Source: Corynebacterium halotolerans
GTDB lineage: Bacteria; Actinomycetota; Actinomycetes; Mycobacteriales; Mycobacteriaceae
Direction of reading: 5' to 3'
Length of the DNA stretch: 64,000 nt
NCBI RefSeq assembly: GCF_001056295.1
Contig: NZ_JVMD01000015.1
Coordinates: forward strand, 62,001-126,000
In this document: one piece after another, positions 2,466 through 11,299 of the stretch
How positions within the stretch are numbered: the first letter of the stretch is position 1
Layout: every line of letters begins with the position of its first letter
The notes under the pieces: model-generated
Database searches by the model: none
Seen by the model: the letters and a program-made list of their open reading frames with translations, nothing else
What the model was told of the DNA's origin: nothing
Position numbers and translations under genes: made by a program

Positions 2466-2740
2466 GGCAGCACCTCCAGCGCTTCGGTGGCGACGACGAT
2501 GGCGGCGTCGAGCATGTCCGGCCGGTACCCCGACCAATGGTCGAGACCATCCGGCAGGTCGACCGTGACGACGGGCAGCGTCGTGTACCCGAGCTTCTCC
2601 ACAGCGAACCGGCCGACCGCGTCGTCCGTGACGTCGACGAGTTTGAAGTCCACACCCGCGTTACGGAGGTGCCGCTTCGTCGCATGGCACTGCATGCACG
2701 ACGGGGCGGTGTAGACGGTGATGATCCGGTCCGGGGTCAC
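2462..2740 (-). CDS. NrdH/glutaredoxin-like redoxin
   Basis: 92 aa from GTG 2740, overlapping the stop of the MuF/protease gene by GTGA. It begins VTPDRIITVYTAPSCMQC: a beta strand followed by a CxxC redox motif (Cys-Met-Gln-Cys, about residues 15-18). Further on it has the cis-proline turn TTLPVV and a HWSGYRPD segment, as in NrdH and mycoredoxin-type thioredoxin-fold proteins. These pass electrons from thioredoxin reductase or mycothiol to ribonucleotide reductase or protein disulfides. It sits between the head-maturation protease and capsid genes rather than with nucleotide-metabolism genes, so a role in folding or disulfide control of head proteins is possible (inference). Confidence 0.85.
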   Translation of the reverse strand: MTPDRIITVYTAPSCMQCHATKRHLRNAGVDFKLVDVTDDAVGRFAVEKLGYTTLPVVTVDLPDGLDHWSGYRPDMLDAAIVVATEALEVLP

Positions 2741-5700
2741 TGGATGCCTCCCGCGAGCAGCGCGGCGGCCATGCGGCGCGCCTCGACGGTGCGGGCCTCG
2801 GTGGCCTCCGCGGCGGCGCGGCGCGCCTCGTGGCGGCGCAGACCCTCCGCGACTGCGTCGGCGAGCTCGTCGGCACGGGACCGGCGGGGCACCACCGCGG
2901 CGGCGACGAGCGACATCTCCGCACCCGACGTGACCGCGTAGGAGCGGGGCACCGGGAAACCGGGCGTGTTCACGGACAGGGCGGCGACCAGTTCGAGGTT
3001 GCCGCCGACCGCCCGCCAATCACCCGACAGCGGTGCCGACGCGCCAGCGCGGACGGTGGCGGTGTCGGCGTCGGGGTTGATGATTCCGGCGACCCAGATG
3101 CCGTGGGCGTCCTCACCGGCGCGGACGAGGGCCCAGCAGGTGCCCGTCTCGTCGTAGTGGGCGGTGGCGGCGTGCGCCCCATCTCGCGGCCCGGCGTGGC
3201 CGGTGCCGACGGTCAGGCGGCCGACGGAGACGGGGCCCTCGTCGGTGGTGACGGTGGAGACGTGGAAGAGGGCGTAATCCGTCTTCGACCGGGGCGGGGT
3301 GACGCCGCGTCCGATTCCGACGTGCTCGGTGCCCCACAAGGCGAGGTGACCGAACACGCGGCCGTCGTCGGTGACGGTCAGGGCCGTCGGCCCGTCGAGG
3401 CCCGGGTCCGCGAACGCGGCGGAGTCCACCGCCTGATCAACCGGGGCAAGGGCGACGGCCGACGCGACCAGCGCCGCCGTCTCCTCCTCCGCATCGTCCG
3501 GGGAGGCAACCTCGTCGCCGAGGACGATCTTCGCCTCCGCGAACGCCGGCTTGCTGACGAGGGTGGCGGCCATGATGGTGCACGCGCGGACGTGCATCGT
3601 CTCCGACCACGACGGGTCCCACTCGTCGACCTCGGGATCGACCTTCTTGCCGTCGCCGTCGACGACGGTGAAGTCGACGACCATGTCGCACATGTCGACC
3701 GACGGGCGGATGACGCCCTCCTCGAGCAGCTCGATGGCCTCCTTGGCGTCGTCGGTGTCGAAGAGCTCTCCGGTGGCGTGGATCGCGCCCGCGTCGACGA
3801 CGGCGGTGGTGATCTTGCCGACGACGACGGCCGTGTCGTGGCCATTGCTCGTGGCGCGCTGGAACATCAGGGGCTGGGGGAACTCGCGGAAATTGATGTC
3901 GGCGTCGGCGTCGATGACGCGTCCATCGCCGGTGGGCGTATCGATGGGGGCCAAAAGACCCGACCACTGGGTGCGCACGGGGGACTCCTTGTCTGCTGCT
4001 GCGGTGACGGTCTGGGGAACATCGTCGCGGGCACGGGTGACCCCATCAGCGGCCCGCGCATACACCTCGGCCTGCGGGTCACGGCGCGTACCGTCGGCGC
4101 GCTCCCGCTCCGTCTGCCGGTCCCCGTCACCGGGCAGCGGCTCATCAGCGGCGAGGAGCAGGAGGCTGCACCGGCAATTTGCCGCCTCGTGAACAGGGAG
4201 ATGCTGGTCGCCCGGGTGGTCGCACTCGTGGCCACCGATCGTGAACTTCCCGTCGAGGGGGACACGCTGACCGTCGGCCTGGAAGTGCGAATCACGGGTG
4301 CGGCGGTCGAGGGTACAATTATGAACCACCAGGCCATTGGCCTGATACCAGTGCCCAGCCGTCTCAAGGTCGTACACATGCCCAACAAACGAGTACCGCT
4401 CGATGTCGACAAGATCGTCCGCCTCTACGAGTCCGGACACTCCCTCAAGGAGGTCGCCGCCGCCGTCGGATCGAACTACAGCACCGTCAGCCGCCGACTC
4501 GCCGAACGCGGCGTCCGCACCCGAACGGCGGGTGAGGGGACGCGCCTTAGGTTCGATCGCGACCCCGCCGCCGCCGAGCAAGCCCGCGCCGCCCAGAAGC
4601 TCGGAGTCGCGGCCCGGCGACGATCCGACATAGACACTGCGGCCGTCATCGCTGAGTACACCTCCGGAGACTCCCTCAACACTGTCGGCGATCGCCACGG
4701 CACCAGCCACGACGTGATCCGCCGTATTCTCCGGGAAGCCGGGGTTCCCATCCGTGGTCAATCCGCCGCTGGAATCATCCGCGCCAGCCGAGAAGACCCC
4801 GCGGTGAAGTCCGAGAAGTACCGCCGAATCGGAGAAAAGGCCCGCGGTCGACCGATGCCGCCCGGCACCCACCAAAGGTCCGCTCGCACGAAGCACGAGC
4901 GCATGAGCCAGCGCGTCGGCCGAGGTGAGATGGAGGTCGCGGGAGCGCTCCGCTACTACGGCTTCGAGGTTGACCGACAGGTCGCGGTCGGCAACTACAA
5001 CCTCGACATCGTGTGCCTTGGCGTCGACGTTGAGATCCACACCGCTGCGCACGGTCCTCACCTTGGCGTCGGACGCATTCATCGCCGCATCGACGACCTG
5101 ACCAATGCCGGGTGGCGAGTCCTGTACGTCTGGTGCCCCAGGGGTCTGAGCATGGACGACCTGGAAGAGGTTGTCCGACAAGTCAAGATCGCCAGCGGCG
5201 ACCCAGCCACGCCCGGTCAATACCGGATGCTCAGGTGTGAGGGAGAGTTCCCGCCCGCTCGCGGTGGTGATGCGTACAAGGGTGCCTACGTACTCTCGAC
5301 GGGCAGCATGCCGAACGTCGATGGCACCGACAACCGTGTCCGGAGCAACGCATAGCCACGCCTTGTGCATTTCCTCGCCGGTGAGTTGCTGCTCCATCCG
5401 CCCCGCCTGCAGGTCGGCGGCGTTGATCAGGGAGTTCGTTTCGGTGCGGGCGATGGTCTGCGCGCGGCGCCGCCACCGCTCGTACTGGGCGGGGTCGTCC
5501 AGGTCGAGGAACTCCCGCACCAGGGCTGCCCGGTCCTGTGGGTTCATGCCGTCCTTCACGGCCTTCGCCAGGGTCTGCACCATCTCCCGGTACACCGACT
5601 CCGGCATCCCCGACACCCGATTGACCGCGGCACGGGCGTAGTCGTCGATGAAGTCGACCCACGTCGCCGTGTCGATGATCACGGTCATCTGCCCGGTGGC

Positions 5701-6075
5701 GATGCCGGCGCGGGTCATGGCGACCATTGCTTCGTCGAGGGCGTCGGCGAGTTCGTCGCGCAGCCCGGCGGCGCGGGGCAGAGCAGTCACGTCGACGCCC
5801 CTCGCGTCGGTCATTGCTGCGACGCGGGCGGCGATGAGCCCGATCTGCGTCGGCGTCATTTCCTGGGCGAGGACGAGGTCCCATGCGGCGGCTGCGGCGA
5901 GGATCGCCTCGATGTTCGGCATCACCTCTTCGTCGTCGGCGGCGGCGAGAAGTGCCCGGAAGACGTTGGGGAGGACGTGGTCGTCGAGCCAGATGCGGAT
6001 CGCTCGCATCACCGGCTCTTCGAGGATGGCGGCCCATTCGTCGAACGGGTCCGGCAGGAACACGGCCATGGTCAC
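2737..6075 (-). CDS. MuF-like head morphogenesis and capsid maturation protease fusion, interrupted by an intein
   Basis: 1112 aa precursor from GTG 6075 (GTGA overlap with portal). Residues 1-241 plus 587-640 form the MuF (minor head) domain. After the intein the sequence resumes with CTLDRRTRDSH and ends in the conserved CRC motif near residue 635. Residues 242-586 are an intein, so the spliced product is 767 aa. Residues about 700-860 look like a prohead protease (GHDTAVVVGKI; RPSVD). Residues about 895-1065 form a further domain often found in actinophage fusions of this kind, and the tail (about 1065-1105) is a charged, Arg/Ala-rich helix. Gene order (terminase, portal, this gene, capsid) fits. 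The protease part would trim capsid and scaffold during prohead maturation. The protease family and catalytic residues are inferred from position and general pattern. Confidence 0.88.
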   Translation of the reverse strand: MTMAVFLPDPFDEWAAILEEPVMRAIRIWLDDHVLPNVFRALLAAADDEEVMPNIEAILAAAAAWDLVLAQEMTPTQIGLIAARVAAMTDARGVDVTALPRAAGLRDELADALDEAMVAMTRAGIATGQMTVIIDTATWVDFIDDYARAAVNRVSGMPESVYREMVQTLAKAVKDGMNPQDRAALVREFLDLDDPAQYERWRRRAQTIARTETNSLINAADLQAGRMEQQLTGEEMHKAWLCVAPDTVVGAIDVRHAARREYVGTLVRITTASGRELSLTPEHPVLTGRGWVAAGDLDLSDNLFQVVHAQTPGAPDVQDSPPGIGQVVDAAMNASDAKVRTVRSGVDLNVDAKAHDVEVVVADRDLSVNLEAVVAERSRDLHLTSADALAHALVLRASGPLVGAGRHRSTAGLFSDSAVLLGLHRGVFSAGADDSSGGLTTDGNPGFPENTADHVVAGAVAIADSVEGVSGGVLSDDGRSVYVGSSPGRDSELLGGAGLLGGGGVAIEPKARPLTRRSGADAAFGESAADGAVVRSDGGGDLLEGVSGLVEADDLVDIERYSFVGHVYDLETAGHWYQANGLVVHNCTLDRRTRDSHFQADGQRVPLDGKFTIGGHECDHPGDQHLPVHEAANCRCSLLLLAADEPLPGDGDRQTERERADGTRRDPQAEVYARAADGVTRARDDVPQTVTAAADKESPVRTQWSGLLAPIDTPTGDGRVIDADADINFREFPQPLMFQRATSNGHDTAVVVGKITTAVVDAGAIHATGELFDTDDAKEAIELLEEGVIRPSVDMCDMVVDFTVVDGDGKKVDPEVDEWDPSWSETMHVRACTIMAATLVSKPAFAEAKIVLGDEVASPDDAEEETAALVASAVALAPVDQAVDSAAFADPGLDGPTALTVTDDGRVFGHLALWGTEHVGIGRGVTPPRSKTDYALFHVSTVTTDEGPVSVGRLTVGTGHAGPRDGAHAATAHYDETGTCWALVRAGEDAHGIWVAGIINPDADTATVRAGASAPLSGDWRAVGGNLELVAALSVNTPGFPVPRSYAVTSGAEMSLVAAAVVPRRSRADELADAVAEGLRRHEARRAAAEATEARTVEARRMAAALLAGGIQ
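4314..4319 (+). promoter_or_regulatory. Candidate -10 box for the antisense endonuclease gene
   Basis: TACAAT lies at the 3' junction of the intein on the + strand, just before ATG 4321 and 59 nt before the preferred start ATG 4378. It is a good actinobacterial -10 (TAnnnT). No clear -35 is seen at the usual distance. The hexamer also encodes, on the other strand, the last Asn of the intein and the first Cys of the C-extein. Confidence 0.35.
4318..5352 (-). other. Intein in the MuF domain (345 aa, Cys1, His-Asn/Cys+1)
   Basis: Residues 242-586 of the precursor. N-terminal block: CVAPDTVV with Cys1. Block B: TPEHPVLT followed by GRGWVAAGDL. C-terminal blocks: VYDLETAGHWYQANG and LVVHN, followed by extein Cys. 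This is a canonical class 1 splicing set (Cys1, TxxH, penultimate His, terminal Asn, Cys+1). Block B is only about 40 residues after Cys1, so the splicing fold is compact. Between the blocks (residues about 300-560) the sense protein is low-complexity Gly/Ala/Ser/Asp/Val with no LAGLIDADG or HNH motif. This middle is the exact codon-by-codon complement of the antisense endonuclease gene at 4378-5355. Insertion is at the most conserved MuF motif (KAWL/CTLDRRTRDSH), as expected for a homing element. Confidence 0.92.
4378..5355 (+). CDS. Antisense-encoded homing-endonuclease candidate: two HTH motifs plus Vsr-like nuclease
   Basis: 325 aa from ATG 4378 (weak AAGGTC upstream; in-frame ATG 4321 is an alternative). 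It lies entirely opposite the intein of the leftward MuF gene, and its stop (5353-5355) falls on the first extein codon. HTH 1 is at about residues 12-47 (LYESGHSLKEVAAAVG, then STVSRRLAERG). HTH 2 is at about 87-124, clearly related (EYTSGDSLNTVGDRHG, then VIRRILREAGV). Residues about 184-265 match the Vsr/EDxHD endonuclease fold: GEMEVAGAL, YNLDIV (Asp210), VDVEIHTAAH (Glu219, His221), an Arg-rich helix with Asp239/240, and GWRVLYVW. By eye its codons end mostly in C or G, stronger than the complementary frame. Residues about 273-325 are opposite splicing blocks A-B and may be passenger sequence. Confidence 0.8.
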   Translation: MPNKRVPLDVDKIVRLYESGHSLKEVAAAVGSNYSTVSRRLAERGVRTRTAGEGTRLRFDRDPAAAEQARAAQKLGVAARRRSDIDTAAVIAEYTSGDSLNTVGDRHGTSHDVIRRILREAGVPIRGQSAAGIIRASREDPAVKSEKYRRIGEKARGRPMPPGTHQRSARTKHERMSQRVGRGEMEVAGALRYYGFEVDRQVAVGNYNLDIVCLGVDVEIHTAAHGPHLGVGRIHRRIDDLTNAGWRVLYVWCPRGLSMDDLEEVVRQVKIASGDPATPGQYRMLRCEGEFPPARGGDAYKGAYVLSTGSMPNVDGTDNRVRSNA

Positions 6076-8069: not shown

Positions 8070-10814
8070 TCACCCGATGGGGGATGCCCAGAAGCCGGGC
8101 CCGACACCCGACGACGGGGACGGGGCGGCGGCGGGCGTGCCCGGTGTGGCGATCTGCGCTTCGGCGCCGACGAGCTGCATGCAGCGTTCGAATCCCTGGG
8201 TGAGGGCGTCCATGCGGTCGGGGGAGTCCTGCCCGGGCAGCCACCTTGTGGCTTGCTCTTCGAGCTCCGGGTGCGTGCCGACCATGCGGAGGCGGCCGGT
8301 GGAGGCGGCCTGGCGGGTGCCGGCGGCGCGGGCGACTTTGTCGCCTTTCGCGCGCCATGGGCGGATGCGGAACGGGGGGTCGGTCTGGTCGGGGATGGGG
8401 ACTCCGTCGATCTGGCGGATGGAGGCCAGCGGGTCGGCGGGCCGGTCTTCCTTCCTGGCGTAGGCCAGCGCCGCGGCGGCGAGGTCATTGTTGTGGGTGC
8501 GGAGTAGGCGGGCTTCGTCGCGAACGCGCCGCCATGCTTCCTCGAGGACGCGTTCGTAGGTGGGGCCGGTGGTGAACGCCTCGAACAGCACCTCGGTGGC
8601 CTGGGTAGTGAGTGCGAGGAGGACGGCGGTGCGGGCCCATTCGTCGGATTGCATGCGCCCCGACCGGTCGTCGGTGACCCAGGCCCTACCGTCGGCGGTG
8701 ACGGTGAGGCCGATGATGCCGGCCTCGTCGGCTTTGCCGGTTTCCGCGGGGTCGACGGACACGATGCGGGCGGCGGTGGTGCCGCCGACGTTGGGGGCGC
8801 GGTGCCGGTCGAACCACTCGCGGGCGAACAGGCCACCGCCCGCCGGGGTGGGCTGCCCGAGGTAGAGGGCGGACCAGACGCGTTCGCCAACATCCTGCCG
8901 GATGCGGGCGAAGTCCTCCGGGGTGCGGCCACGGGCCGACTGCATTGCTTCCCCTGCGGGCCGTCCGAGGGCGTCCGGGACGCCCGGGGTGGAGACGGCG
9001 GGGATGTTCACCACCCGCCACGACGACCGGCCGGCCTGCTTATCCTGGGCCAGCACATGCCCGGTGAGGTCGTCCTCGTGCCAACGGGTCTGGATGATGA
9101 TCACGGGGGCGCCGGCGGCGAGGCGGGTCTGCGCGACAGAGTCGTACCAGGTGATCACCTTCTCCCGCTCTACCACCGAGTCGGCCTCGGACATGCCCTT
9201 GAGGGGGTCGTCGATGACTAGCACCTCGGCGCTCTTGCCGGTCAATCCACCGCCGACGCCGACGGCGAAAAGCCCTCCCTTGTGTCCGGCGAGCTGCCAC
9301 GACCCGGCGGAGGCGTTGTCGTCGGCCAGGGCCAGGCCCAGTTTGTCGGCGAGCGTCGCGCCGGTCAGGGGGTCGCGTGCGCCGTGGCCGTGCTCCCGGA
9401 TGATGTTGCGGACCTGGCGGGCCATCCCCCGGGCAAGATGCTCTGCGTAGGAGGCGAGGACGACGCGACGCTCGGGATCCTGGACGAGGGCGCGGACGAC
9501 GCCCCACACGCCCACACGCTGCGAGTTGTGGGTGGGCACCATGGTCCGGCCCACGAGGTACAGGCCGTCGGGTGCGTCGACGGTGATGCACCGGCCGGGC
9601 CGTGGGGGGATGGGCTCGATGCCGGTGATGGGGATGCGGCGGCGGGCGGCGCGGGCGGTGATTCGTCCCTCGTAGCGGGGCAGGCGCGTTGGCACGATGC
9701 CGTCGTGGGGGCTGAATGCGATGCGCCACATCTCCCGCCGCCCGGTGATCTGCTGGCCGTGTACGCCGGTTCCGCCGTCACTGGGGGCGATGGGGCGGTG
9801 TTCGCCGGCGCGGTATCCGAGGGTGCGGACAAGCTCGGCGACGTCGGCGACGAGGCGGCGGTTCGTGTTGTCGAAGCACACCTGGTTGCCCGTGGCGGGA
9901 ACGTGCCCGTCGGAATCGATCAACCCGGCCAGCAGGGCCCGCCGCTGTGCCTCCGACGCCCGCAGGTACGCGGAGGGGATGTGCCTGTTGCTCAGCAGGC
10001 CCAGGGCCCGCAGTGCGGTGAGGAAGCCGCCGCCGAGGTAGTCCTGGACGACGCCGGTGTCCTTGTGCGTCCAGGTGGACGTGACGGGGTAGGCGTACTG
10101 GTAGTCGTCGGCGGCGTCGTGGTGGATGTAGGCGCCGGATGCGCGGCCGTCGCCGAGCCACAGCCCCAGGGTGTACGGGTCAATGGGGAGGTTGGCGTCG
10201 GGGAGGGTGAAGACCTCGCGGTGCGGCAGGTGGCTCAGGTACTTGCATCCCCGACGGCCCGCCGGGCCGGTGGTGATGGCGTGGTCCGCGAGCCATTGAG
10301 TTTCGACCGTGCGGGGGGCGGGGCGGCCGTTGCGGTGGATGGTCCATTCATGCTGGGGGTGGACGTCGATGTGGTCGTTGCCGTCGATGTGGACGCGCAT
10401 GGTGGCCATCGCTTCGGGGTGGATGGCGGTGACGGTGACGGGGCGGCCGGAGGGGTGCATCACCTGGTCGCCGGGGCGGAGCTCGCCGTGCGTGGTCCAG
10501 CCGGTGGGCGTGGGCACGGGGGTGTCGTGGGCGACTAGTTTCCCTTCCTGTGGGGGCATTGAGATTGCGAGGCGGGCGTCGCGGGTCGACAGGGCCCATT
10601 CGAGGGCCTGGTCGATTGCTTCGAGGGCGGGGGTCTGCACCGTCGACGGTTCGATGGCTTGGGCGAGGGCCCCGGCGGTGGGGTGTTGCTGGGCGACGGT
10701 GGCGCGGGTGGTTTCGCGGTCGAGGCGGTGGAGGAGGGCGGCGCGTTGGGCGGGGGACCAGCCGGCGGTTTCGGCGAGGATGGTGCGGCGGATCAGGTCG
10801 GTGTGGTCGGTCAT
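8070..10814 (-). CDS. Terminase large subunit, interrupted by an intein in Walker A
   Basis: 914 aa precursor from ATG 10814. Its ATP-driven motor and nuclease package phage DNA. The P-loop MPPQEGK/S is split: Gly91-Lys92, then intein residues 93-430, then Ser431. Walker B is VLVIDD (about 531-536). RNase-H-like nuclease motif IVSVDPAETG has Asp688, with further acidic residues towards Asp869. The spliced product is 576 aa, a normal length. The segment AGSWQLAGHKGGLFAVGVGGGLTG matches the conserved terminase region before Walker B. ATP binding requires splicing, since the precursor has no complete P-loop. Confidence 0.93.
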   Translation of the reverse strand: MTDHTDLIRRTILAETAGWSPAQRAALLHRLDRETTRATVAQQHPTAGALAQAIEPSTVQTPALEAIDQALEWALSTRDARLAISMPPQEGKLVAHDTPVPTPTGWTTHGELRPGDQVMHPSGRPVTVTAIHPEAMATMRVHIDGNDHIDVHPQHEWTIHRNGRPAPRTVETQWLADHAITTGPAGRRGCKYLSHLPHREVFTLPDANLPIDPYTLGLWLGDGRASGAYIHHDAADDYQYAYPVTSTWTHKDTGVVQDYLGGGFLTALRALGLLSNRHIPSAYLRASEAQRRALLAGLIDSDGHVPATGNQVCFDNTNRRLVADVAELVRTLGYRAGEHRPIAPSDGGTGVHGQQITGRREMWRIAFSPHDGIVPTRLPRYEGRITARAARRRIPITGIEPIPPRPGRCITVDAPDGLYLVGRTMVPTHNSQRVGVWGVVRALVQDPERRVVLASYAEHLARGMARQVRNIIREHGHGARDPLTGATLADKLGLALADDNASAGSWQLAGHKGGLFAVGVGGGLTGKSAEVLVIDDPLKGMSEADSVVEREKVITWYDSVAQTRLAAGAPVIIIQTRWHEDDLTGHVLAQDKQAGRSSWRVVNIPAVSTPGVPDALGRPAGEAMQSARGRTPEDFARIRQDVGERVWSALYLGQPTPAGGGLFAREWFDRHRAPNVGGTTAARIVSVDPAETGKADEAGIIGLTVTADGRAWVTDDRSGRMQSDEWARTAVLLALTTQATEVLFEAFTTGPTYERVLEEAWRRVRDEARLLRTHNNDLAAAALAYARKEDRPADPLASIRQIDGVPIPDQTDPPFRIRPWRAKGDKVARAAGTRQAASTGRLRMVGTHPELEEQATRWLPGQDSPDRMDALTQGFERCMQLVGAEAQIATPGTPAAAPSPSSGVGPGFWASPIG
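9525..10538 (-). other. Class 3 intein with LAGLIDADG endonuclease (338 aa)
   Basis: Residues 93-430 of the terminase precursor. Position 1 is Leu, not Cys or Ser (LVAHDTPVPTPTGW). Block B is VHPQHEW (Trp157), block F is RCITVDAPDGLYL (Cys409), block G is VPTHN then Ser+1 (Thr428). This Trp-Cys-Thr triplet with no N-terminal nucleophile is the signature of class 3 inteins, which use the block F Cys to form the branched intermediate. The two LAGLIDADG motifs are LGLWLGDG (216-223) and LLAGLIDSDG (294-303). Insertion between Lys and Ser of the P-loop is a common intein site. Confidence 0.93.
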
Positions 10815-10846
10815 GCCCGTGATGGTGGCGGGGTGTGGTGACCGGG

Positions 10847-11299
10847 TCAGCGGGGAGTGAGGGCGGCCCAGGTGTAGACGCTGACGATGGTGGCGATGGC
10901 GTGGACGAGGACGACGTCGCGGTGCGTTTCGGGGACGTTGGCGATGGTGGTGATGAAGAAGTCGACGGCGTGGCCGGTGGTGTCGGGGTGCATGGCGTGG
11001 CGGGCGAAGCCGACGCCGATGTCGTGGCCGGTGCGTTGCCACTCGTCGTCGAACATGGTTGACGGTTCGAGTTCGTCGGCGATGGCCCCCACGTCAGGAG
11101 TCGCGCCCATGAGGCGGATGGTGAGGGGCCCGGCGGTCGCGAGGCCGGCGAGGGCGGTGGGGAAGTCGGGCCAGGTGACGACGATCGACGTGATCCGCTG
11201 GCCCAGTGCCTCGGGGGTGAGGTCGGGGTCGGGCCAGCAGATCTCCGCGGCGATGCGCCCGGCGAGATGCCGGATACGCGCACGCCTGTCGGAGGTCAT
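10847..11299 (-). CDS. Phage protein of unknown function, upstream of terminase
   Basis: 150 aa from ATG 11299 (longer in-frame starts lack support). Mixed alpha protein with a C-terminal half rich in hydrophobic and His residues (GFARHAMHPD, then DFFITTIANVPETH). Not recognised. Immediately upstream of the terminase large subunit is where small terminase subunits often lie, but no HTH is visible here, so I do not assign that role. Confidence 0.6.
   Translation of the reverse strand: MTSDRRARIRHLAGRIAAEICWPDPDLTPEALGQRITSIVVTWPDFPTALAGLATAGPLTIRLMGATPDVGAIADELEPSTMFDDEWQRTGHDIGVGFARHAMHPDTTGHAVDFFITTIANVPETHRDVVLVHAIATIVSVYTWAALTPR

Follow-up and report, generated by a model that had tools for sequence, protein, structure and literature searches.

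We analysed a 64,000-nucleotide stretch of the Corynebacterium halotolerans contig NZ_JVMD01000015.1 (positions 62,001 to 126,000; hereafter the window), in which a MuF-type head morphogenesis gene is interrupted by an intein. This intein very probably has its likely homing endonuclease encoded separately, by a gene on the other strand whose codons are in register with those of the intein, with the middle of the element selected mainly for the antisense protein and its ends for the intein. At the level of sequence comparison, we show the two frames and their register, conservation in dozens of lineages, a switch of selection between the strands, a start codon of the antisense gene in intein block F, avoidance of codons that would interrupt the intein frame with stops, and alleles that lack the intein but share its exteins. 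From what is known of the families concerned, we infer that the intein would splice and that the antisense gene would be expressed, encode an active nuclease, and support homing.

The MuF intein and its antisense gene

An earlier note on this DNA had placed splicing blocks at both ends of the MuF-gene intein, and the profile matches agree: TIGR01445 (27.2 vs 24.5), TIGR01443 (20.2 vs 15.6), and Pfam Intein_splicing (36.7 vs 35.8) all score above their cut-offs. In the predicted structure, the HINT-type ends (residues 1-60 and 311-345) have block-mean predicted local distance difference test (pLDDT) values of 89-98. The best 50 Foldseek rows for this model were 48 inteins and 2 hedgehog autoprocessing domains, none of them with E <= 0.001. 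C1 and H42 are invariant across 38 aligned inteins of the group, and Cys is the first residue in 63/63 distinct inteins. An end of the form xN followed by C, S, or T was found in 60/60 inteins examined (of the 63), but the search pattern demanded it and the end of L030 is doubtful. The MuF intein presumably removes itself by protein splicing. Its middle, which the note had called featureless, is so in the model as well, as residues ~154-306 have no predicted fold (pLDDT < 50). A PHROG profile labelled as a head protein, phrog_15127, matches the intein N region and linker of this intein (4318-5352, minus strand); the profile seems to be partly intein, and perhaps it includes the mirror of the nuclease active site.

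The antisense open reading frame (ORF) encodes 325 residues, and its codon boundaries coincide with those of the intein, as had been claimed (register 0; Table 1). The two helix-turn-helix (HTH) motifs expected in its product were recovered, and HTH_58 matched above the Pfam cut-off (E 5e-11). A Vsr-like nuclease domain had also been proposed. This part holds for the family profile and the predicted fold, on which the predicted nuclease assignment rests, while the MTES_1575 and DUF559 matches both lie under Pfam's own cut-offs. The fold and profile matches point to a Vsr/EDxHD-type nuclease fold, EDxHD being a motif name for Vsr-like homing endonucleases such as I-Bth0305I, and a homing-endonuclease catalytic domain is among the best fold matches. 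D210 and E219 are invariant and E184 is conserved in more than 90% of 42 family sequences. One claim had to be given up, namely that the nuclease core is confined opposite the linker dispensable for splicing: the ORF begins within block F and, over its final ~60 residues, faces blocks A and B. The HTH units (residues 11-50) also resemble the CRISPR repeat-binding protein Cbp1 (NF040595, 3.2e-10, below cut-off; profile match to 2lvs).

Table 1. Features of the MuF intein locus in the window, and related genes at other loci
Feature	Locus	Position	Strand	Remarks
Host gene, MuF-type head morphogenesis protein	window	2737..6075	-	Long C-terminal part matches head-protease-type PHROG families; Pfam Phage_Mu_F above cut-off
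Intein in MuF gene, 345 residues, Cys1...HN	window	4318..5352	-	Splicing blocks at both ends
Intein block B, TPEHPVLT	window	5215..5238	-	Includes His42
Intein block F, GHVYDLET	window	4360..4383	-	
Intein block G, C-terminal His-Asn	window	4318..4323	-	Cys+1 at 4315-4317
Antisense homing-endonuclease-like gene, 325 residues	window	4378..5355	+	ATG 4378; TAG stop 5353-5355 opposite last N-extein codon; register 0 to intein
Shine-Dalgarno-like AAGGT	window	4366..4370	+	7 nt 5' of ATG; mirror of block F codons
ATG start	window	4378..4380	+	Opposite CAT of intein His325 (block F)
First HTH region, residues 10-43	window	4405..4506	+	
Second HTH region, residues 87-120	window	4636..4737	+	
Predicted Vsr/I-Bth0305I-like nuclease core, residues 182-275	window	4921..5202	+	E184, D210, E219 conserved
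C-terminal tail, residues 276-325	window	5203..5352	+	Faces intein blocks A and B; model confidence mostly low from residue ~290
Terminase gene with canonical intein, sense-frame LAGLIDADG	window	8073-11042	-	Pfam LAGLIDADG_3 8.6e-11
Second antisense endonuclease gene in intein-like insert, Gordonia phage Nordenberg	L105	1082-1792	-	MuF site, register 0
Free-standing nuclease relative, Acinetobacter phage BUCT629	L139	2330-3223	+	Tail to tail with uninterrupted, intein-less head-morphogenesis gene

Homologs and survey

The earlier note would have been contradicted by a plus-strand protein without homologs, and homologs were found. The protein database holds six entries for the antisense protein, a 99% copy and five at 78, 48, 41, 30, and 27% identity, and a tblastn search with it gave 90 phage records. 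Ten of these were read in that batch; among the remainder, some show additional small annotated features beneath the match. In all ten, the antisense gene lies inside a host gene in register 0, and none of the ten annotates it. The ten phages infect Mycobacterium, Gordonia, Cronobacter, Edwardsiella, Pseudomonas, Salmonella, and Shigella, and their host genes are annotated as head morphogenesis, head, minor capsid, capsid maturation protease, structural, or hypothetical proteins.

For a wider survey, six-frame ORFs of 102 sequences were searched with profiles for the nuclease and for the two intein regions, N and C (loci are numbered with L; the window is L001). A nuclease match above 100 bits was called strong, and 20 loci with weak matches alone (HTH repeats or partial nuclease, no intein N region) were excluded before counting. 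The first batch gave 84 strong matches in 82 sequences, including the window, its copies, and other re-fetched contigs. The intein N region was on the opposite strand in 84/84 and the C region in 81/84, and none was on the same strand; where the C region was not found (L040, L041, L091), the match is near a contig end. Every row was in register 0 and had no stop in the intein frame. This batch reduces to 63 distinct intein DNAs with both regions, which form 47 clusters. Twenty of the 22 loci in the second batch (L122 and L127 repeat first-batch loci) have the same arrangement, again in register 0 without an intein-frame stop. The intein N region is thus opposite in 104 of 106 strong matches, some of them re-fetched. 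The exceptions are L135, where the contig ends and the C region is present but the N region is missing, and L139, described below. Among 396 genomes of the window's phylum, with 5-6 candidates scored per genome, nuclease (> 100 bits) and intein occurred in the same five genomes; eleven others had weak or partial nuclease-profile matches only. By these comparisons, the predicted arrangement is one that recurs in dozens of lineages.

Selection on the two strands

Since the codons coincide, the first sense position lies opposite the third antisense position. The counts of changes below are for sense positions 1/2/3, in that order. In 10 hand-picked disjoint pairs the core had 599/260/388, against 88/48/146 for the N block and 87/44/141 for the C block. 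The gap-free pair L006/L069 gave 31/3/10 in the core, 0/0/4 in the N block, and 1/1/8 in the C block. Among six enterobacterial relatives, variable sites were 85/16/34 in the core and 13/3/33 in both blocks (Fisher 9e-7, positions 1 and 3); their extein control (60/42/138 over 150 codons) is ungapped and possibly misaligned, and carries no weight. For nine Salmonella and Shigella phage sequences (eight phages, LSPA1 twice), the core had 34/8/9, the N block 6/2/8, and the C block 2/2/4. In 145 overlapping and hence not independent pairs (antisense identity 45-98.5%), position 1 exceeded position 3 in the core in 141 with four ties, position 3 exceeded position 1 in the N block in 114, and antisense identity was higher than linker identity in every one. 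Similarly, 7 of the 9 intein base differences between the window and L002 are at sense position 1; for the terminase intein region of the same two prophages, with its sense-frame LAGLIDADG, the differences over 320 codons are 0/6/9.

The check on both frames that the earlier note had suggested therefore turned out in favor of the antisense frame in the middle and of the sense frame in the splicing blocks, and the opposite outcome, a conserved sense linker with an unconserved antisense frame, did not occur. The comparisons show that selection switches strand inside the intein. One might still argue that the plus-strand ORF is a mirror artefact, with the linker under selection and the antisense frame conserved merely through coinciding codons, since GC-rich DNA often leaves register-0 antisense frames open, as in the window (876-codon frame, P = 0.47). 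We regard this as hardly credible. The HTH families and the nuclease fold are matched by the antisense protein and not by the linker, which is predicted to be unstructured at residues 154-306; opposite the core it is the antisense third position that takes the changes; linker identity is the higher one in 0/145 pairs; and a relative of the nuclease (L139) stands free, with no intein detected around it.

Openness of the antisense frame was considered as evidence for the gene in the window and rejected. It is weak evidence by itself because the GC-rich antisense frame stays open for 876 codons across the host gene, and the chance of its being open across the intein, given the sense residues, is 0.47. 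The same calculation at 15 loci gave 1 for L028, 0.47 for the window, and 0.32 for L008, and negligible chances in lower-GC loci (8e-8 for L042 and 5e-16 for L050). This bears on the reading that the nuclease is defunct and its frame open by chance or through intein constraint alone. Such a reading could draw on the high values at some of these loci and on the three inteins without a start codon at block F (L024, L036, L055). It is nevertheless very improbable, as the antisense frame is open along the matched stretch in 84/84 and 22/22 strong matches, chance openness is negligible at lower GC, and the third-position bias indicates continuing constraint. Homology, conservation, and codon-position patterns together confirm the putative antisense gene as real. 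As for its register, enumeration shows that register 0 is the sole antisense phase that can encode every dipeptide without an opposite stop, but the other two phases forbid just 5 or 6 of 400 dipeptides. Shared ancestry and stop avoidance may thus both be reasons for register 0.

Block F and stop avoidance

The antisense start lies opposite the His of GHVYDL/GHVYNL. It is ATG (CAT in the intein) in 46 inteins and GTG (CAC) in 8; L050 also has ATG, and five more inteins have ATG one codon further on, so that 60 of the 63 inteins checked start at block F and L024, L036, and L055 have no start codon there. Because both His codons mirror a start codon, the conserved block F His itself serves the antisense gene. 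Among the 47 clusters, 41 have His at the start place, and 35 of these use CAT, compared with 13.8 expected from extein codon usage. A Shine-Dalgarno-like match 5' of the start averages 4.68 bases in the 47 clusters (3.75 expected for the same residues). No sigma-70-like site was found by a promoter search of window positions 4000-5700, and the search in L012 gave three sites, all on the host-gene strand and none for the antisense gene.

TTA, CTA, and TCA, which the endonuclease had been predicted to avoid, are absent opposite the linkers (0 among 836 Leu and 702 Ser codons in 63 inteins), although 124.6 were expected from extein codon usage. Each of these nuclease codons would place a stop in the intein frame. 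The free-standing relative L139 has 12 of them.

Host genes, intein-less alleles, and the proposed role of the predicted nuclease

A scan of eleven host genes showed that such inteins also occur outside MuF. Two each are in genes for the terminase large subunit (L020, L036) and a head maturation protease (L044, L051), and one each in those for dCMP deaminase (L053), minor capsid protein 2 (L056), and a phage metallopeptidase-like protein (L078). In L024 one gene carries two inteins (2984-3724 and 3947-5083, plus strand), each with an antisense nuclease frame, and L025 is alike; the second antisense frame of this double-intein gene has no start codon at block F.

Intein-less partners are uninterrupted at the exact insertion site in the pairs Sejanus/Dori, Fosterous/Geodirt, and SGPC/SETP13, with flank identities of 116/120, 118/120, and 100/120 bases. 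Mask (98.6% identity outside the intein) is, like Dori, an intein-less counterpart of mycobacteriophage Sejanus. One Gordonia phage MuF site occurs in four states: empty (Geodirt) or with a Fosterous-type, Kewpiedoll-type, or Nordenberg-type intein. The comparison of the window with L002 is only suggestive of homing, because the flanks are mosaic.

The antisense protein might be real and have another role, either as a DNA-binding regulator of head-gene expression or as a nuclease for superinfection exclusion against intein-less relatives. Its HTH matches outscore its nuclease matches in the window, and a nuclease cutting competitors' MuF genes would be favored too. This alternative is improbable, if less so than the two above. 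As would be expected of homing, nuclease-type residues are conserved, a homing-endonuclease catalytic domain is one of the best fold matches, the gene sits in an intein, exact sites are polymorphic for its presence, and several host genes are occupied. Excluding competitors is compatible with homing.

A likely homing endonuclease encoded opposite the intein would work as follows. The antisense ORF would be translated from its own start as a free nuclease, which would bind the intein-less site through its HTH units and then cut it, and repair from an occupied copy would insert the intein. With its gene antisense, the nuclease would be expressed independently of the late structural gene, and the intein would keep a long linker on which the main demand is to have no stops. 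The separation from host-gene expression, already proposed in the earlier note, is plausible.

A second antisense endonuclease and a free-standing relative

The insert of phage Nordenberg is of a different type. At that same Gordonia phage MuF site it runs C...HN followed by C, but neither its Pfam Hint score nor its intein score reaches the cut-off. Its antisense protein has 236 residues, and the first start in common with Barsten is an ATG further in. It matches phrog_5046, labelled HNH endonuclease (E 3.6e-15), and is related to a free-standing gene of Cyanophage PP; no relatives were found in the viral contigs searched. There is no relevant Pfam match, and the match to I-MsoI (3fd2; E 6e-4) covers just 25 residues; a LAGLIDADG identity is tentative. 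Between Nordenberg and Barsten, the core differs by 38/4/9, the N block by 11/6/21, the C end by 7/12/18, and the upstream extein by 3/1/23. Inteins thus probably acquired nuclease genes in antisense on at least two occasions.

In L139 no intein was detected, and the mirror frame of the nuclease gene holds 12 stops. Its place next to a MuF gene that has no intein suggests that a mini-intein captured a neighboring nuclease gene, or that such a gene escaped from an intein. We think it likely that this is a general, repeatedly evolved intein architecture, involving at least two unrelated nuclease families, in which block F provides the ribosome-binding site and start of the antisense gene, the linker is the stop-free mirror of the nuclease, and the free-standing relative reflects such a capture or escape.

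Comparison with known systems

Canonical mobile inteins (HINT with in-frame LAGLIDADG or HNH) are alike in their splicing blocks and HINT-type ends; they, too, insert at conserved residues and have empty alleles. Their nuclease is in the splicing frame, whereas here it would be a separate polypeptide from the other strand. I-Bth0305I, from a group I intron, and the related Vsr-like homing endonucleases share predicted fold and profile similarity with the antisense protein. I-Bth0305I is described as a mobile intron protein in the PDB.

The earlier note knew of no described case. None was found for inteins in the literature searched, of which coverage was partial, but group I introns do have known antisense endonuclease genes (PMC9548176). 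According to that report, the Didymium squamulosum L2066 nuclear group I intron carries an antisense homing endonuclease gene with expression and cleavage shown. There too the nuclease gene is opposite the host-gene strand. The host of L2066, however, is a ribozyme in ribosomal DNA and its nuclease is of the His-Cys type, whereas here the opposite strand is an open intein frame and both strands are coding over the whole nuclease. The ShiLan element of a phage methylase gene has no splicing domain, but it too is an insertion that is open in the host frame and hides its endonuclease in another frame (PMC11855218).

If correct, this would be a new design of mobile intein, in which nuclease and splicing domain share DNA but not a polypeptide or transcript, and a natural, widespread full-length antisense gene overlap with a measurable strand switch of selection. 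It also suggests that a conserved protein-splicing motif doubles as an opposite-strand translation start. Phage inteins recorded as large and without a nuclease may have one concealed on the antisense strand; of the first ten phage records read, none lists this gene.

In the window itself, the intein of the terminase gene differs from that of MuF in having the usual sense-frame LAGLIDADG. Its first residue is apparently neither Cys nor Ser, which we take to be reminiscent of class 3 inteins.
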